A DNA stretch of 64,000 bases, from the NCBI GenBank assembly GCA_019112865.1, contig DXIN01000038.1:1-64000 (forward strand), given 5' to 3'. The DNA comes from Candidatus Helicobacter avicola. Its GTDB lineage: Bacteria; Campylobacterota; Campylobacteria; Campylobacterales; Helicobacteraceae. Below are positions 13,011 to 21,618 of this stretch, piece after piece. The position numbers and the translations under genes are program-made. Within the stretch, counting starts at the first letter, position 1. Every line of letters starts with the position of its first letter. The notes below the pieces were generated by a model. That model made no database searches. It saw only the letters and a list, made by a program, of their open reading frames with translations, and was not told where the DNA came from.

Positions 13011-14972
13011 ATGGGGAAATATCTACAATCAGTCATTGTTGTATTTTTTGTCTTAGTTTCTGCACTATTGGCGGATTCTGCTTCTGCGCGTGTAACACCT
13101 CAAGGTGATGGTATCAAGCCACGAACTTTGCGGGATTATGTAACGCAAGAGAAAGATTTTTATGACTTAATCAAAAAGAAACACCCTGTGTTCAAATACC
13201 AAAAAGATGGGCGTTTGGTGGGGGATTTGGCTGTCAGTGATCGACAAGAGGAGTTCGTGGAGTTTAGCGGTGGTCCTGATTATGCAAAAAAAGTCAATCA
13301 AGAAATCGTATCGGTAACTTATCGTTTAGGTTTTGAATCTATCTTGGATTATCCAAACAAATTTGTGGGTCCTAAAAAATGCGGTGAATGCCACCCAGCT
13401 CAATACGCCGTTTGGGAGCGTTCAAGACACTCTAAGGTTGTGCGCTTTCCCGATGAGTTAGAGGAGGTGGGAGGAGATCCTAAGCGAAAGATGTATGGCT
13501 CCCAATCCTCTATCCTGCCAGAGGGAATCTATCCTGATGATGTGTATGCTATCATCGGGACACCAAGGACTAAGTATGGATTTTTGGATAGATGGCTTGT
13601 GCGAGGGACATACCATGTAGAGGGTGGAAAACTCGGTGATGTTATGGGTAAAATCGTAGCAGGGGGTAATCAATTCTCAAGACTTTGGTCTGAATCTCTC
13701 ACTCCAGAGGTTGCCAAAAAAATTGCGACATTTTCTCCAGGATTCCCTACAAAATTAGAGGATTTTGGTGCGCAAGGCTCTAATGTGTGGGGGACAAACT
13801 CCTATGGCTCTACCAATAGAGGCAAGTTTATGTTCCAGCCTGCAAGCTCGTATTGTGAGACTTGTCATAGTTTTAAATTTGACTTTAAGAGCAAAACGGA
13901 GTTTTTTAACGCTATTGGAAATGCACAAGAATTGAGAAAACACACTATCTCCAAAGGTATTTCCTGTGAGGAGTGCCATGGGGCGGGTGCGCACCTCTAT
14001 GGTGCGAGGGGTGCTGGTATGCCTTCAAATTGTGAGCGATGCCACCAAAGATTTGCCTATAACGAAGCAGATTCACAACTCAATAACCGAAAACCTTTCA
14101 ATGTGTATTTCAAATCCGCTTGCCCATCTTGTGGGACTGAAGGCTCACAGATGTATAGCACCGCACACTATGATAAGGGAATGCGTTGCAACACTTGCCA
14201 CGATCCACACGAGGTAACTGCCAATGATTGGAGAGATCCTTACACGAAAGTAGGATTGAAAAAAACCTGCACCGATTGTCATGAGACACAGCAAACTTTC
14301 TTTAAACAAGGTGGGATTCACGCCAAAGATAACTGCACGGCTTGTCATATGCCAAATATGATGAGTTGTGAGAACTTTGCATCTATCCAAAATCCTGATA
14401 AGGCGGGATTTGATAATGTCCGTGCCTCACACATCTGGAAGATTAAGGTTGATAAAAGTGCTAAAACAATCAATCCGCCAGAGGGCAAACCAAGAGATCC
14501 TCGAAGTGTGAAAGGCTGGACTATCGCAAGAGGGGAAGATGGTAGATTTTTCCTCGATCTTATGTGGAGTTGCGGTCGCACAAGCTTTAGTGATGTCAAT
14601 CTTGTGGGTCCGGGTGCGAGTGGTTGCCATAGTGCCGTGCAATCCACATTGCCTGACAAGCTCAAATATACCGATCAGTCGCAAATCTATGATGATGTGA
14701 TGAAATGGCAAACTCCTGTGAAAGAAGGCTTTACTAAGACACAAGAGATGATTAAGAAAATTGATAAAGATCTTTTGGACAACACAAAGCTCTCTATCGA
14801 ACAAAAATCTCGTGTTATCTTGCTTGCTAAACAGGCTCAAGACATTTTGGATAGGATTGAAAAAGACGGATCTTGGGGTGTGCATGGTCCGGCGTATTCC
14901 AAAAAGATTATCAATGAAGCTTTGATTTACGCACAACAAGCTCAAGACATCATAAGTGGCAAAAGCAAATAA
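13011..14972 (+). CDS. mccA: Octaheme cytochrome c, MccA/SirA-like (probable sulfite reductase)
   Basis: A 653-residue periplasmic protein with a signal peptide (hydrophobic residues 6–20, then ADSASA). Seven CxxCH sites begin at C124, C282, C319, C341, C393, C420 and C442. An eighth candidate is C521-X17-C539-H540. An unusual long-spaced haem motif (CX15CH in Wolinella MccA) marks the haem c–copper sulfite reductases, whose copper is held by two extra cysteines; C371/C374 (CPSCG) and C453 are spare here. MccA reduces sulfite to sulfide. The neighbours supply copper (SCO), thiol and haem-lyase functions, which fits. Other multihaem enzymes (hydroxylamine oxidoreductase or tetrathionate reductase type) remain possible, but do not explain the CX17CH. 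A GAGGGGAG ribosome site precedes the ATG. Confidence 0.72.
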   Translation: MGKYLQSVIVVFFVLVSALLADSASARVTPQGDGIKPRTLRDYVTQEKDFYDLIKKKHPVFKYQKDGRLVGDLAVSDRQEEFVEFSGGPDYAKKVNQEIVSVTYRLGFESILDYPNKFVGPKKCGECHPAQYAVWERSRHSKVVRFPDELEEVGGDPKRKMYGSQSSILPEGIYPDDVYAIIGTPRTKYGFLDRWLVRGTYHVEGGKLGDVMGKIVAGGNQFSRLWSESLTPEVAKKIATFSPGFPTKLEDFGAQGSNVWGTNSYGSTNRGKFMFQPASSYCETCHSFKFDFKSKTEFFNAIGNAQELRKHTISKGISCEECHGAGAHLYGARGAGMPSNCERCHQRFAYNEADSQLNNRKPFNVYFKSACPSCGTEGSQMYSTAHYDKGMRCNTCHDPHEVTANDWRDPYTKVGLKKTCTDCHETQQTFFKQGGIHAKDNCTACHMPNMMSCENFASIQNPDKAGFDNVRASHIWKIKVDKSAKTINPPEGKPRDPRSVKGWTIARGEDGRFFLDLMWSCGRTSFSDVNLVGPGASGCHSAVQSTLPDKLKYTDQSQIYDDVMKWQTPVKEGFTKTQEMIKKIDKDLLDNTKLSIEQKSRVILLAKQAQDILDRIEKDGSWGVHGPAYSKKIINEALIYAQQAQDIISGKSK

Positions 14973-15025: not shown

Positions 15026-17149
15026 ATGCGTAGGATATGGTTAAATGTCGTAATTGCTTTGTTGTGTATGCTTCCAAACATCTATGCTGATGGGATTGCT
15101 GGGATTGCTGTCATAGAGGGTGTTACGCCTATTAGTATGGCAGATGCCGAAAAAATGTTAGAAAACAATCAAGCATTGTTTATGGACGCAAATACTCAAG
15201 AGACAAGAAAAGAGATTGGGTTTATACCAAATGCGATTTCTATTGCCTCGGAGGATTGGGAAAAATTCCTCCCAAAAGATAAAAATGCCTATATCGTTTT
15301 TTATGCTCTTAATAGAATGAGCTATGAGGGTGCAGAGGCGGCGTTTGTCGCGCAAAGCAAGGGTTATGAAAATGTCTATGTCTTAACTGATGGCATCGAG
15401 GGCTGGGTGCTATCGGGGCGAAAAGTCATCAAGCAGGGCATACAAGAGTGGCAAAGCGCAAAGAATGTGCTAGACTTTACCGATGGCATACACAAAGATT
15501 TGGTTTTTGGGAGCATACCCGCGTGTAGGGATTGTCATGGCAATATCAAGGCAGACGCCAAAAACCCTATGGCACTCAATCTACAAGCAGACATCTCCAA
15601 AACAATTAACCTCCAAACCGCTAATAACTCACACCTTATCAACAAAAACTGCGCCTCATGCCATAAGGAGATAGATAAAACCTTTACTGATAGTATCCAT
15701 GCGCAAAAAATGGCTAATATTGGTTTTAACGAATATCTTAGTTTGGACAATAAAACAGATTCTGGCAAGACACTACCACTTTGCTCGGATTGCCACGCGA
15801 TTCACACGACTACAGAACGTGGGCTTATGACACCTAAACAACTCAATGATCTAAAATGTGGTGCTTGTCATACACAAAAGCAAGAACATTACTATGACAC
15901 ATTCCATGGCAAAGCTATGGCGCTTAATGTCCCCGGCACTGCGCCAAATGTCGCTGCATGCTATGATTGTCATGGTAAGCACAATATTTTTAAAGTCGAT
16001 GATCCTCGCTCTACTTTGCACAAAGAAAATCGCATACAGACATGTGCGCAATGCCACGAGGGCGCAAATCTAAGCTTTACAGAATTTATTGCCCATGCAG
16101 ATCATTATGATAGGGAGCAATACCCTGCGCTCTTTTGGGTATTTGTTTTTATGACTGCTTTAGTGGCACTTGTCTTTACATTCTTTGGATTCCACACATT
16201 GCTATGGTCTGTGCGTCTTATTCTAGCGCGTATCAAATATCCACAACAATGGAAAGAGGCTAGGGAGAAAGCACACGCTGATACCGTGTATATCAAGCGA
16301 TTTAGCATATTCCATAGAATCCAGCATTTCTTTATGGCAGCGAGCTTTTTGGGACTTGCATTTTCAGGATTACCACAGAAGTTTTATACTGCACCTTGGG
16401 CAGAGACGATGATTGCACTTATGGGTGGTCCTTTGGTAGCGACTACTATACATCATATTTCGGCTGTGATTATGTTTGCTGTGTTTTTCTCGCACATAGG
16501 TGAGATTGTTTATCGCGCGTGGTTGCGTAGAGATTGCATACGCGATGCAAGTGGCAAACTAAGTATGAAACTCTTTTTGAAAGCGCTTTTTGGTCCGGAT
16601 TCTCTTATGCCTAGAATGCAGGATTTTAGAGATATGGCAGCACATTTCAAGTGGTTTTTTGGCAAGGGTGAGCGTCCGCAATTTGATAGATGGACATATT
16701 GGGAAAAGTTTGACTATCTTGCGGTATTTTGGGGTATGTTTGTGATAGGATTCACAGGGCTTATGCTGTGGTTCCCCGTGGCATTTTCGTATGTATTGCC
16801 CGGTAGTGCGCTCAATCTTGCGACTATTATTCACTCTGATGAGGCATTGTTAGCCACAGGCTTTATCTTTGCTGTGCATTTCTTCAATACACACTTCCGT
16901 GCGGATAGATTCCCAATGGATATGGTTATCTTCTCTGGAAGCATTACAGAAGAAGAAATGAAGCAAGAACGTAGCAAGTGGTATGAGCGACTTAAGGAAA
17001 ATGGCAAGTTTGATAAACTCCTAGATAGGACATACAATTTCGCACCTTACAATAAATTTGCGAAATTCATAGGATTTGCTATGCTGATTACGGGTATGTT
17101 TTTCTTATTCCTTATGATTTACGCATTTGTGTATCATCTCATCTTTTAG
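15026..17149 (+). CDS. Rhodanese-like / hexahaem cytochrome c / cytochrome b fusion protein
   Basis: 707 residues with a signal peptide (1–21). Residues about 30–135 form a rhodanese-like fold (VLTDGIEGWVLSGRKV near its end), but the active-site loop reads FYALNRMS where a Cys is expected, so sulfur-transfer activity is unlikely. Six CxxCH motifs follow, starting at C167, C209, C253, C278, C312 and C340. From about 365 to the end is a multi-helix cytochrome b561/formate-dehydrogenase-gamma-like membrane domain with paired histidines (HRIQHF, IHHISA, SHIGE, VHFFNTHF). I infer that it oxidises menaquinol and passes electrons through its haems to the octaheme reductase. The domain fusion is unusual. 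Confidence 0.75.
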   Translation: MRRIWLNVVIALLCMLPNIYADGIAGIAVIEGVTPISMADAEKMLENNQALFMDANTQETRKEIGFIPNAISIASEDWEKFLPKDKNAYIVFYALNRMSYEGAEAAFVAQSKGYENVYVLTDGIEGWVLSGRKVIKQGIQEWQSAKNVLDFTDGIHKDLVFGSIPACRDCHGNIKADAKNPMALNLQADISKTINLQTANNSHLINKNCASCHKEIDKTFTDSIHAQKMANIGFNEYLSLDNKTDSGKTLPLCSDCHAIHTTTERGLMTPKQLNDLKCGACHTQKQEHYYDTFHGKAMALNVPGTAPNVAACYDCHGKHNIFKVDDPRSTLHKENRIQTCAQCHEGANLSFTEFIAHADHYDREQYPALFWVFVFMTALVALVFTFFGFHTLLWSVRLILARIKYPQQWKEAREKAHADTVYIKRFSIFHRIQHFFMAASFLGLAFSGLPQKFYTAPWAETMIALMGGPLVATTIHHISAVIMFAVFFSHIGEIVYRAWLRRDCIRDASGKLSMKLFLKALFGPDSLMPRMQDFRDMAAHFKWFFGKGERPQFDRWTYWEKFDYLAVFWGMFVIGFTGLMLWFPVAFSYVLPGSALNLATIIHSDEALLATGFIFAVHFFNTHFRADRFPMDMVIFSGSITEEEMKQERSKWYERLKENGKFDKLLDRTYNFAPYNKFAKFIGFAMLITGMFFLFLMIYAFVYHLIF

Positions 17150-17167: not shown

Positions 17168-17626
17168 ATGAGGCGAAGTATCGTTGCGATAAGTCTAGCT
17201 GGGATATTGGGTGCATTATGCGCGTATGGAGTGTTTGCGTTTTTTCAAAATACCTATGATGGACATATAGTGCAAGAGGAGGGTGTATTGCCTCCGCTCC
17301 CATGCTCACTCAATAAGCAGCAATGTTTTGTGGATTTTGATGGCAAACGCATAGGCTTTGAGGCTTCACCCCGTCCTATTAGCTTTATGGAGCCTACGCT
17401 CATCAATGTCAGCGGACTTGATGGATATGATGACATCAAACTTAGAATCTATGGGCTTAATATGGAGATGGGCACACTTATAGCTAGCACGACTAAGGAG
17501 GGTGAGATACATAGGGCAAAGGTAGCACTCAATTCTTGCTTGCTAGAGACTATGCGTTATAGAATCTCTGTGTATAATGGCAATGAGGCATTGGGGCTTT
17601 ATATGGATTTTGACTTGGAGCGTTAG
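17168..17626 (+). CDS. Membrane-anchored periplasmic protein of a copper/SCO gene cluster
   Basis: 152 residues. One N-terminal membrane segment or uncleaved signal (7–28) and a small periplasmic beta-rich domain. It contains PCSLNKQQC with two cysteines, a PRPI segment, and YGLNMEMG, a Met-containing stretch like copper sites. I recall proteins with this Cys-x6-Cys, PRPI, N-M-x-M-G pattern beside SCO genes in many proteobacteria; their role is not settled. Its stop abuts the ATG of the SCO gene. A part in copper handling for the octaheme enzyme is inferred. Confidence 0.55.
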   Translation: MRRSIVAISLAGILGALCAYGVFAFFQNTYDGHIVQEEGVLPPLPCSLNKQQCFVDFDGKRIGFEASPRPISFMEPTLINVSGLDGYDDIKLRIYGLNMEMGTLIASTTKEGEIHRAKVALNSCLLETMRYRISVYNGNEALGLYMDFDLER

Positions 17627-18175
17627 ATGAAAAGGCTTTTGCTGGTTGTTGTTGTATTTTGTGTGAGCTTTGGGGCAGTATTTATGTGGCTTGAACACGG
17701 CAAATACGACTTTCTCGCACAAACTACTAGCGGACAAAAAAGCCTCCAAGATTTTAAGGGTCGTAATCTCATCGTGTATTTTGGCTATACATTTTGTCCT
17801 GATGTCTGTCCCATCACGCTTTCATTTCTTGCCCAAGCACTTAGGCAAGTAGATTCTACAAAATTCACATTGCTTTTTATTACGCTTGATCCACACAGAG
17901 ATACTCCAGCGGATTGTCAATCCTATGCCCAATCTTTTTTTGATTCTGCTTATGGATTGTGGCTAGACCCAAGTGCTTTGAGTAAGGTTGCGGCACATTA
18001 TGGTGTGAGGTTTGAAAAAATTCCTATGCCAGATTCTGCTATGCAATACTCCATAGCTCATACCTCAACACTCTATCTTTTTGACGAAAAAGGCAATTTT
18101 AGAGAATCTATCACAAACCCAACTATTGAGCAAATCACACAATCTCTTAATAATCTTAGTAGTAAGGAGCAATGA
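17627..18175 (+). CDS. SCO1/SenC-family copper chaperone
   Basis: 182 residues with an N-terminal membrane anchor and a thioredoxin fold. The copper ligands are complete: CPDVC in FGYTFCPDVCPITLSFL and the His in SIAHTSTLYLF. SCO proteins insert copper into cytochrome oxidase; here the neighbours suggest delivery to the MccA-like reductase. The start ATG directly follows the previous stop, and the end overlaps the next gene by 4 bp, so translation is coupled. Confidence 0.9.
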   Translation: MKRLLLVVVVFCVSFGAVFMWLEHGKYDFLAQTTSGQKSLQDFKGRNLIVYFGYTFCPDVCPITLSFLAQALRQVDSTKFTLLFITLDPHRDTPADCQSYAQSFFDSAYGLWLDPSALSKVAAHYGVRFEKIPMPDSAMQYSIAHTSTLYLFDEKGNFRESITNPTIEQITQSLNNLSSKEQ

Positions 18176-18777
18176 TGAGGCAGTATATCACTTTGGGTGT
18201 ATTGTTATTGTGCTTGAGTGCATGCAAAAACAGCACGATTGATGAGGATATTATCAGCTCTGGTACAAACACACCCCCACAAGAAAAGCAAAAGATTGAG
18301 AATCTTGATAAGGCATCGTATGCCAAGCTCGCCCATATTTTTTTAGACAACCAAACCATAGCAAGCAACCAAAAAACTATCCTAATTGTTTTTGGTGCTA
18401 ATGCGTGTAGTGCTTGTCAAAAACTCCAAGATTCTATCATAGACACACCAAGTCTGCAAAAAAAACTCCAAGAGGAAGTTTCTCCATACTATATCAATAT
18501 CAGCTACACAAAAAACCATACGCTTGAGTTTGAGCTAGATTCAGAATCCAAAGTGCTTAATACCTCCGCTCTAGCCAATCTCTATGGAGTAAATGCCACA
18601 CCAACACTCGTATTTCTCACGCCTAGTGGAAAAATGCTTTTTGCCTATCCGGGGTTTTTGATGCCTAAACGTTTTGAGAGGACGATTGATTTTTTCAATG
18701 ATCCAAACAATGCCTCTCTTACGCAAACACAAATAGCTCAAAAGCTTATTATGCTTTATGAAAAAGAGCAAATATGA
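18172..18777 (+). CDS. Thioredoxin-like lipoprotein
   Basis: 201 residues. The N-terminal signal ends in a lipobox (LLLCLSAC), so it is probably anchored in a membrane facing the periplasm. A thioredoxin/SoxW-like domain has the redox pair in NACSACQKL and the cis-Pro in NATPTLVFL. It likely reduces cysteines in apocytochrome c haem motifs or in copper sites before cofactor insertion. It overlaps the SCO gene by 4 bp and is followed 9 bp later by ccsBA. Confidence 0.8.
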   Translation: MMRQYITLGVLLLCLSACKNSTIDEDIISSGTNTPPQEKQKIENLDKASYAKLAHIFLDNQTIASNQKTILIVFGANACSACQKLQDSIIDTPSLQKKLQEEVSPYYINISYTKNHTLEFELDSESKVLNTSALANLYGVNATPTLVFLTPSGKMLFAYPGFLMPKRFERTIDFFNDPNNASLTQTQIAQKLIMLYEKEQI

Positions 18778-18786
18778 GGGGTTAGT

Positions 18787-21618
18787 ATGAAGATTATCCA
18801 TAAAATTTTGCAATACTTTTTTTCGTTTAAATGCACCTTGCCTTTGTTGTTTATCTATGCTTGTTTGTGTGCGTTAGCGACCTTTGTAGAAAATGACTTT
18901 GGTGTGCAAGATGCGAGGTTTCTCATCTATGATACGAAATTTTTTGATACACTCCATATTCTTTTGGGTCTCAATCTCATAGGGATTTTTTTACGCACAA
19001 AATCTTGGAAGCAAAAAAAATGGGCTACCCTTATTTTTCATGCTTCTTTTGTGGTCATCGTCATTGGTGCTGGTATCACGCGGTATTTTGGTATCGAGGG
19101 GGTGATGCACATACGCGAAAGCCAAAGCAGCGATGTGTTTATCACGCAAAACGAATATATCATCGTCATCGCAAGTATTGATGGTGCGATTTATCAGACA
19201 CATTTTCCTATCCATATCAATGCACTACATAATTATGCGCAGTTGTATAATGCGTATTTGCCCGCCCCTCTTGCTCGGATTCTTGAGAAATGTTGTGATA
19301 GGCAGATTCCTTTTGCGTTTGAACCACAAAGCATTCCCCTCCAAAAAGGCACACTAAACATATCCTACCAAGATTTTCAACCTGCGCAACCTATGATAGT
19401 CCCCCAACCAATGCTAAAACTTCAAGTGGAGTATAATGGTCAAAGCACGCAAATTGCCCTTGTTCAAAATTTTATTGATGATACGTTAGAGCCTTTTGCA
19501 TTAGGGGGAGCGGAGTTTGCGATTAGTTGGGGACCTATGCCCATAGGACTTCCTTTTAGTATCGCACTACAAGATTTTGAAATGGCGAAATATCCCGGCT
19601 CCTCTAATCCCTCATCGTATATTTCGCGAGTGGTTGTGCAAGATGAAGCACAGAATCTACCCTTTGTTATTTCTATGAATAATGTGCTTGATTATAAGGG
19701 ATATAGGTTTTTCCAAAGCTCTTATGATGAGGACGAACAAGGGACAATTTTAAGTGTCAATAAAGACCCGGGCAAGATTCCCACTTATATAGGGTATGCA
19801 ATGCTTATTTTTGGGCTATTGTGGAGTTTTTTTGCTAAAAATGGGAGATTTGCCAAGCTTTCAGAGCATCTTAAGAGTCAAAAACTTTTTATCATACCAC
19901 TTGTGTGTATGTTAAGCATACCGCTTTCCCTGTATAGCCAAGAATCTCAAGAGGAGAGTTTGGAGCAGGGAGATAGGGCGTTTATCCTACACAGACTTAA
20001 TGCGCTCTTAGAAGATTCTAAAGATCACGCAAACAGATTCGGAGAGCTTGTCGTGCAGGATTTTGATGGGAGAAACAAACCCATAGATACGCTTGCTATG
20101 GATATGATACATAAAATCACAAAGCAAAATACGCTCTTTGGACTTAATCATACGCAACTTTTTTTGGCAATGATGCTCTACTATGATGAGTTTAGGGATA
20201 TTAAACTCATCGCTACTTCAACGCCACGTTTGCGTGAGATAATAGGTGTGCCAACGACACAAAAACATATTGCTATCAACGATACTTATGAAAATAATGT
20301 CTATAAACTCACAAATTATGTCGAGGAAGCAAACCGCAAGAAACCATCAGAACGCGATGCGTTTGATAAAGATGTCTTGGAAGTTACCGAGCGTATCAAT
20401 ATCGCCCTAGCAATCCTTGCTACTGATGTTTTTAAAGTCTTTCCACACAAGGGAGATTCTGTTTGGGTGTCTCCAGCAGAGGCTATTATGAGCTTTTCTC
20501 ACGAAGATGCTGCAAGGGTGCGTGAGCTTTTAGAATCGTATTTCACAAGTATAGATTCTGCGCTTGTCAATAACGATTGGAGTGCGGCAAATAATTATCT
20601 AAAAAATCTCAAAGATCTTCAGCAGGAATGGGGTGCTGCCCTTATGCCTTCATCTACGAAAATCACCATAGAAGTGCTCCTTAATCATCTTGATATTTTC
20701 TATCGTCTTACTTTTGTCTATTTGTTTGTTGGTGTGGTTTTGCTTGGGAATGTGCTTATCAGTATTGTCCGCAACACGCCAATCTCACGCAAGTTTGGTC
20801 GCTTGATGTTTGCGATTGTTGTTTTAGGTTTTGGTGTGCATACACTAGGTCTTATTTTGCGTTGGTATGTTGGTGGGCACGCACCTTGGAGCAATGCTTA
20901 TGAATCTATGATTTATATTGCGTGGGCTGGAGCGTTGGCTGGGGTGAGTGTGTTAGCAAAATCTTATCTCAATCTTGCTATGGCAAGTTTAGTAGCTGGA
21001 ATCACGCTTTTTGTTGCACATTTAGGCTTTATGGATCCACAAATTGGCAACCTCGTCCCCGTGCTCAAATCCTATTGGCTCAATATCCATGTATCAGTTA
21101 TCACCGCAAGTTATGGCTTTTTGGGGCTTTGTTTTATTGCTGGTGTTGTTACACTTTTGCTATTTGTGTTACGCAATCCTATGCGCACTCACATTGACCA
21201 GGCGATTGTGAATCTACATTGTATCAATGAAATCTCGATGATTGTTGGTTTGGCACTCCTTAGCATTGGAAATTTTTTGGGAGCAATATGGGCAAACGAA
21301 TCTTGGGGTCGCTATTGGGGCTGGGACCCAAAAGAGACTTGGGCGCTTATCTCTATTGTGGTTTATACTATTGTGTTGCACCTACGATTTATTTGGCGAT
21401 GTAATACGCCTTTTGTGTTTGCAAGTGCGAGCGTTTTGGCGTTTTATTCAGTTTTGATGACATATTTTGGGGTCAATTTCTACCTAAGTGGTAAGCATTC
21501 TTACGCAAGCGGTGAGCCTATTCCTGTGCCGGTATTTTTGTATGTAATGATTGCTTGCACCATCGGACTTATTGCTATGGCGTATATAAAACGCAAACTC
21601 CCTATGCCAAAACTCTAA
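18787..21618 (+). CDS. ccsBA: Fused cytochrome c synthase CcsBA (ResB–CcsA)
   Basis: System II haem lyase of 943 residues. The N-terminal half is ResB/CcsB-like (membrane helices plus a large periplasmic part); the C-terminal half is CcsA with the haem-handling WWD motif (WGRYWGWDPKETWALIS). It exports haem and attaches it to CxxCH cysteines. In Wolinella a dedicated paralogue, CcsA1, is needed for the long-spaced MccA haem motif. Placement at the end of this cluster suggests the same here, though it could also be the only CcsBA of the genome. An A8 run near codon 75 is noted. Confidence 0.92.
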   Translation: MKIIHKILQYFFSFKCTLPLLFIYACLCALATFVENDFGVQDARFLIYDTKFFDTLHILLGLNLIGIFLRTKSWKQKKWATLIFHASFVVIVIGAGITRYFGIEGVMHIRESQSSDVFITQNEYIIVIASIDGAIYQTHFPIHINALHNYAQLYNAYLPAPLARILEKCCDRQIPFAFEPQSIPLQKGTLNISYQDFQPAQPMIVPQPMLKLQVEYNGQSTQIALVQNFIDDTLEPFALGGAEFAISWGPMPIGLPFSIALQDFEMAKYPGSSNPSSYISRVVVQDEAQNLPFVISMNNVLDYKGYRFFQSSYDEDEQGTILSVNKDPGKIPTYIGYAMLIFGLLWSFFAKNGRFAKLSEHLKSQKLFIIPLVCMLSIPLSLYSQESQEESLEQGDRAFILHRLNALLEDSKDHANRFGELVVQDFDGRNKPIDTLAMDMIHKITKQNTLFGLNHTQLFLAMMLYYDEFRDIKLIATSTPRLREIIGVPTTQKHIAINDTYENNVYKLTNYVEEANRKKPSERDAFDKDVLEVTERINIALAILATDVFKVFPHKGDSVWVSPAEAIMSFSHEDAARVRELLESYFTSIDSALVNNDWSAANNYLKNLKDLQQEWGAALMPSSTKITIEVLLNHLDIFYRLTFVYLFVGVVLLGNVLISIVRNTPISRKFGRLMFAIVVLGFGVHTLGLILRWYVGGHAPWSNAYESMIYIAWAGALAGVSVLAKSYLNLAMASLVAGITLFVAHLGFMDPQIGNLVPVLKSYWLNIHVSVITASYGFLGLCFIAGVVTLLLFVLRNPMRTHIDQAIVNLHCINEISMIVGLALLSIGNFLGAIWANESWGRYWGWDPKETWALISIVVYTIVLHLRFIWRCNTPFVFASASVLAFYSVLMTYFGVNFYLSGKHSYASGEPIPVPVFLYVMIACTIGLIAMAYIKRKLPMPKL

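Follow-up and report, generated by a model that had tools for sequence, protein, structure and literature searches.

Among the closest described relatives of the protein examined here is MccA of Wolinella succinogenes (PDB entries 4rkm and 4rkn), in which seven CxxCH haem motifs are accompanied by an eighth, long motif, CX15CH (C562/C578/H579). We take its copper ligands to be Cys399 and Cys495 (Wolinella residues are numbered from MKYWD throughout), and its sulfite-binding pocket presumably comprises K208, Y285, Y301, R366, K393, C399 and C495, residues that reportedly come from the structure paper of Hermann et al. 2015. The active site of MccA is haem 2 (PMC7096707). Two reports, citing earlier work, describe the CX15CH site of Wolinella as needing a dedicated lyase, CcsA1 (PMC6976685, PMC10663686), and according to the second the lyase must recognise some other feature of the X15 loop (PMC10663686). 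The open literature yielded no relevant paper on CX17CH, or on CX17 together with cytochrome; earlier mention in subscription papers is possible. Here we describe a locus from Candidatus Helicobacter avicola that encodes an MccA homologue with a CX17CH motif, and compare it with its relatives.

Results

The mccA gene and its haem motifs

The window, a stretch of 64,000 nucleotides from contig DXIN01000038.1, contains mccA at 13011-14972 on the forward strand, as are all window features given below. The predicted product of 653 residues is a periplasmic octahaem c-type cytochrome with an N-terminal signal peptide, and both full-length homology and fold place it in the MccA/SirA family. In a phmmer search of the PDB, 4rkm/4rkn gave the best match (E=6e-195) and were the sole sequence relatives. 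An AlphaFold model, computed without haems from a 47-sequence alignment, had a mean pLDDT of 84.9, with values of 87 and 85 for the blocks spanning the long motif (residues 521-530 and 531-540), and Foldseek matched it to 4rkm with E=1e-64 and a TM score of 0.89; the second-best fold, OcwA, reached a TM of only 0.37. We rejected pseudogene status for mccA, as the frame is intact and its clade relatives are under purifying selection.

The protein has exactly seven CxxCH motifs: CGECH (residues 124-128, 13380-13394), CETCH (282-286, 13854-13868), CEECH (319-323, 13965-13979), CERCH (341-345, 14031-14045), CNTCH (393-397, 14187-14201), CTDCH (420-424, 14268-14282) and CTACH (442-446, 14334-14348), the second of which corresponds by alignment order to active-site haem 2 of MccA. 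A sequence-only reading of this DNA had claimed that the eighth haem has no ordinary CxxCH and instead uses Cys521, seventeen residues, Cys539 and His540 at 14571-14630, and both the residue numbers and the coordinates proved exact, with the Cys521 codon at 14571-14573 and that of His540 at 14628-14630. The 17-residue stretch between the two cysteines is GRTSFSDVNLVGPGASG. Fourteen of the 19 cysteines of the protein lie in the seven CxxCH motifs and two in CX17CH; the others are Cys371, Cys374 and Cys453.

The long motif across relatives

Our MccA alignment held 106 rows (the window protein and 105 extracted sequences), of which 103 were untruncated over the motif. Cys521, Cys539 and His540 were invariant in all 103, which argues against a chance occurrence; the lack of conservation of Cys521 that the earlier reading had named as grounds for refutation was not observed. 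The CX15CH that it gave for Wolinella MccA corresponds to 4rkm C562/C578/H579, with which the window motif aligns, and the two extra residues it had counted appear as an insertion directly ahead of CH (...DVNLV-GPGASGCH in the window and ...DKDQAEAKGCH in Wolinella). Alignment, invariance and fold all point to an eighth haem site that is atypical in the manner of Wolinella MccA and longer by two residues.

Over all fetched loci, repeat gene copies included, the C-Xn-CH spacing was 15 in 91, 17 in 53 and 18 in 2. In a tree computed after removal of the loop, and for which no root was inferred, all MccA proteins with a spacing of 17 or 18 formed one clade (SH-aLRT 98), with 18 nested within it. 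Its members are from Campylobacter, some Helicobacter and Mucispirillum; Sutterella (15) adjoins it, followed by Ferrimonas and Shewanella SirA (15), and MccA proteins of the Wolinella/Arcobacter/C. concisus type (15) are distant. The spacing of 17 is thus not peculiar to the window protein but characterises a whole clade, in which CX17CH is a variant of an atypical haem site already described. One indel on the tree suffices to turn 15 into 17, and insertion is the simpler reading on this unrooted tree because 15 is found on all other branches. We rejected frameshift or sequencing error as the source of the spacing, which is kept in dozens of genomes. The CX18CH variant occurs at two loci (L062 and L063) of genus g25, in single-lyase genomes.

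Copper site and sulfite pocket

The putative copper ligands Cys374 (14130-14132) and Cys453 (14367-14369) are the alignment counterparts of Wolinella Cys399 and Cys495 and were invariant in 47/47 and 103/103 sequences. All seven pocket residues (K208, Y285, Y301, R366, K393, C399 and C495 in Wolinella numbering) were invariant in the 47 aligned sequences. In G167, a genome from the same family assembled as one contig, a protein contains three long stretches letter-identical to the PDB sequence of Wolinella MccA. Whether the 15/17 spacing tracks with lineage or with substrate had been posed as a question for alignment: it follows lineage, along with a different setting of electron input and maturation, and since the checked active-site residues are the same across spacings, a change of substrate is not indicated. 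By inference, reduction of sulfite at haem 2 with copper would carry over to the window protein.

An additional cysteine, Cys371, lies three residues ahead of Cys374 (CPSC, 14121-14132). At this position 20 of 55 CX15 proteins (those of the Wolinella type) have G and four CX17 proteins have N; given these replacements, Cys371 (CPxCG), considered as an extra copper ligand, is not essential.

Genes downstream of mccA

Five genes follow mccA closely, with gaps of 53, 18, 0, -4 and 9 bases. The first (15026-17149) encodes a 707-residue fusion in which Pfam and NCBIfam profiles recognised a rhodanese-like domain and a cytochrome b561/FdhI-like membrane domain; the protein also has six CxxCH motifs. 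It is followed by a 152-residue protein (17168-17626) without a family match among the Pfam and NCBIfam profiles, an SCO1/SenC copper chaperone-like protein (17627-18175; PF02630, E=4e-31), a thioredoxin-fold protein (18172-18777; PF13098, E=5e-19) proposed as a reductant of apocytochrome or copper-site thiols, and a CcsBA-type haem lyase of 943 residues (18787-21618; PF01578 and PF05140) proposed to be dedicated to the window MccA. The 152-residue protein accompanies sco and trx in Mucispirillum and in three further genomes (G241, G103 and G435).

A fusion of about 700 residues, combining rhodanese, hexahaem and cytochrome b parts, adjoins mccA in CX17/18CH loci and was absent beside mccA in all CX15CH loci with flanks. 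A rhodanese gene stands directly after mccA as a separate gene in Sutterella, and a short similar gene is found there in Shewanella/Ferrimonas, which implies that the rhodanese is older than both the fusion and the change of spacing. Most simply, the fusion would be the quinol dehydrogenase that feeds the MccA of this clade. In its rhodanese domain, YALNRMSYE stands where Sutterella has YCINRMCTV, so that the usual catalytic cysteine is seemingly missing.

Haem lyase numbers and phylogeny

Lyases were counted as CcsA/CcmF-family (PF01578) proteins per whole genome, a search that recovered all three Wolinella lyases and smaller family members elsewhere. All 44 CX15CH Campylobacterota genomes with a read spacing contained two or three (three in Wolinella), and genomes without mccA had one as a rule, with a single exception (G168). 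Two lyases were present in 23 of the 41 CX17/18CH genomes, namely, the window genome, two other Helicobacteraceae, the C. jejuni-type genus g22 and genus g53, and exactly one intact lyase was present in the other 18 (G020, G023, G311, G079, G262, G182, G142, G214, G204, G174, G152, G130, G300, G193, G256, G245, G178 and G169), 14 of which are in three contigs or fewer and are nearly or fully closed. In genera g14 and g26, two lyases were found in 24/24 CX15CH genomes and one in 16/16 CX17CH genomes; as CX17 forms a single clade, these genomes do not count as independent events. The single lyase of G256 is divided into two adjacent frames, and in G245 (locus L100) the N-terminal part of a second lyase survives as a remnant adjoining mccA. 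Purifying selection acts on mccA in the single-lyase genomes (pN/pS 0.06-0.25).

Two arrangements deserve separate mention. In genus g53 (L151 and L152), a very divergent CcsBA (~38% identity, on a long branch) is placed divergently beside mccA, in the same place as the G245 remnant. In genus g26 (L154, L159, L164, L099 and L095), the sole lyase adjoins mccA on the opposite strand, with an ORF of ~140 codons between them.

In the window lyase, a ResB-like and a CcsA/CcmF-like (PF01578) domain share one polypeptide, which is the CcsBA (System II) architecture. CX15-linked lyases form one clade (SH-aLRT 100) on the NrfI side of the lyase tree, and CX17-linked lyases, including the window CcsBA, form a separate clade (SH-aLRT 98) beside the hemH-linked CcsA2-type lyases of Helicobacteraceae. 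This separation implies that dedicated long-motif lyases arose at least twice, and orthology of the window lyase with CcsA1 was rejected on the same grounds. The sole lyases that were sampled from single-lyase genomes fell among general Campylobacter lyases. Because these genomes keep mccA under purifying selection with only a general lyase, a dedicated enzyme seems dispensable for CX17/18CH in such species.

Gain and loss of the locus

The window genome has two lyases and its five mccA-less congeners have one each. The nearest of these (G103 and G435) have the 152-aa/sco/trx trio between proA and an MFS gene, without mccA, the fusion or ccsBA; G241 still has an intact trio, while its copies of mccA, the fusion and ccsBA are all truncated or broken. 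Lyase and MccA are thus kept or lost together; the trio persists without either, which makes a further role for its three proteins probable. A simple recent gain in the window genome was rejected, as the presence of the trio, but not of mccA and ccsBA, at this site in G103 and G435 favours loss there. The window trio (17168-18777) shares 34-47% identity with that of G103/G435, and the flanking proA, ispG and MFS products share 83-92%.

Uncultured Mucispirillum (Deferribacterota) metagenome-assembled genomes (L005, 9962-19151, and L006) carry nearly the same cluster, with a CX17CH mccA ~70% identical to that of the window, the fusion, the 152-aa/sco/trx trio and a ccsBA whose product branches as the nearest sister to the window lyase (SH-aLRT 97). 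Such likeness suggests that the cluster was transferred between gut phyla.

Discussion

We consider it highly probable that the window protein belongs to the MccA/SirA family as a respiratory sulfite reductase with eight haems and a dependence on copper, that haem 8 is attached covalently through Cys521 and Cys539, and that the electron route and dedicated CcsBA proposed for it are correct. Haem 8 would be joined to both cysteines over the 17-residue loop, with His540 as axial ligand. Electrons would probably pass from the quinone pool through the rhodanese-hexahaem-cytochrome b protein to MccA and then along its haem chain, haem 8 included, to the haem 2/copper site, where sulfite would be reduced to sulfide. 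The downstream CcsBA probably loads the CX17CH site, a specificity that we propose from its linkage to mccA, its loss together with that gene and its clade, and the Sco-like and thioredoxin-like proteins probably assist copper and thiol chemistry.

Two departures from this scheme were weighed and found improbable, the first marginally the more so. Haem 8 might be held by one thioether, from an XXXCH-like Cys539-His540, with Cys521 free or otherwise used; a gap of 17 residues would let Cys521 sit elsewhere, and the general lyase that serves alone in 18 CX17/18CH genomes possibly makes one bond. Set against this are the invariance of Cys521 over spacings of 15, 17 and 18, its alignment with Wolinella C562 and the sharing of the 4rkm fold by a model with good confidence in the motif region. 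The clade might alternatively consist of MccA-fold octahaem reductases that act on another acceptor (nitrite, hydroxylamine or thiosulfate, for instance), the lengthened loop belonging to that shift; the different electron-input partner with its rhodanese domain and the ~50% identity to Wolinella MccA would be in keeping with this. Yet none of the pocket and copper residues that were checked varies in either spacing class, and the rhodanese genes after mccA in Sutterella and, in short form, in Shewanella/Ferrimonas predate the change of spacing.

The meaning of the lyase pattern is less certain. We lean slightly towards the view that, in much of the CX17/18CH clade, an ordinary CcsBA may load CxxCH and X17/X18 sites alike, the longer loop freeing the protein from the kind of dedicated lyase that CX15CH appears to require, and that dedicated lyases had at least two independent origins, one near NrfI/CcsA1 and the other near general lyases of the CcsA2 type. 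A doubtful but appreciable competitor holds that the insertion was neutral and unlinked to lyase need, and that single-lyase genomes employ an unrecognised extra maturation factor or mature MccA poorly. The origin of the 17/18 clade in one change, which reduces the correlation to few independent events, and the retention of a dedicated lyase in some CX17 genomes fit this competitor. Poor maturation sits badly with the purifying selection on mccA in single-lyase genomes, however, a missed CcsA/CcmF protein is unlikely given what the PF01578 search recovered, and the same genera contain two-lyase CX15CH and one-lyase CX17CH genomes.

The two extra residues are of less interest than the change of electron-input partner and the seeming dispensability of a dedicated lyase. 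Evolution has combined a single catalytic core with two different membrane modules for electron input, and the CX17/18CH clade offers natural comparisons between relatives with a dedicated lyase, relatives with a general lyase only and relatives that have lost lyase and MccA together. Campylobacter and Helicobacter of the gut may use CX17/18CH MccA for sulfite respiration.

Compared with Wolinella MccA, the window protein has the same octahaem fold, the same complement of seven CxxCH motifs and a long C-Xn-CH, the same copper-ligand cysteines (C374/C453 for C399/C495) and invariant pocket residues, but differs in spacing (17 versus 15) at ~50-52% identity. The Wolinella mcc locus has FKBP (MccB), 4Fe-4S (MccC) and NrfD (MccD) genes, which serve electron input and folding, in place of the fusion; the window system has neither these genes nor the spacing of 15 nor the CcsA1-clade lyase that characterise the Wolinella-type subgroup. 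Shewanella SirA and Sutterella MccA are nearer on the tree, with a rhodanese-like gene directly downstream, but they have CX15CH and their rhodanese is separate, unfused to a multihaem cytochrome b. Their genomes encode PF01578 proteins of ~650-690 and 250-330 residues, sizes that we take to be those of System I CcmF and CcmC, in contrast to the fused CcsBA of the window. The mcc cluster of the Campylobacter jejuni group resembles that of the window in having CX17CH, trx, ccsBA and a cytochrome b partner of the fused kind, but neither a 152-aa gene nor sco was detected there; its thioredoxin, C8J_0031, potentially acts on MccA (PMC7089426). Finally, the window lyase shares the fused CcsBA architecture of Wolinella CcsA1, NrfI and CcsA2, but groups with the CX17-linked lyases beside the CcsA2 type, apart from the CcsA1/NrfI branch.
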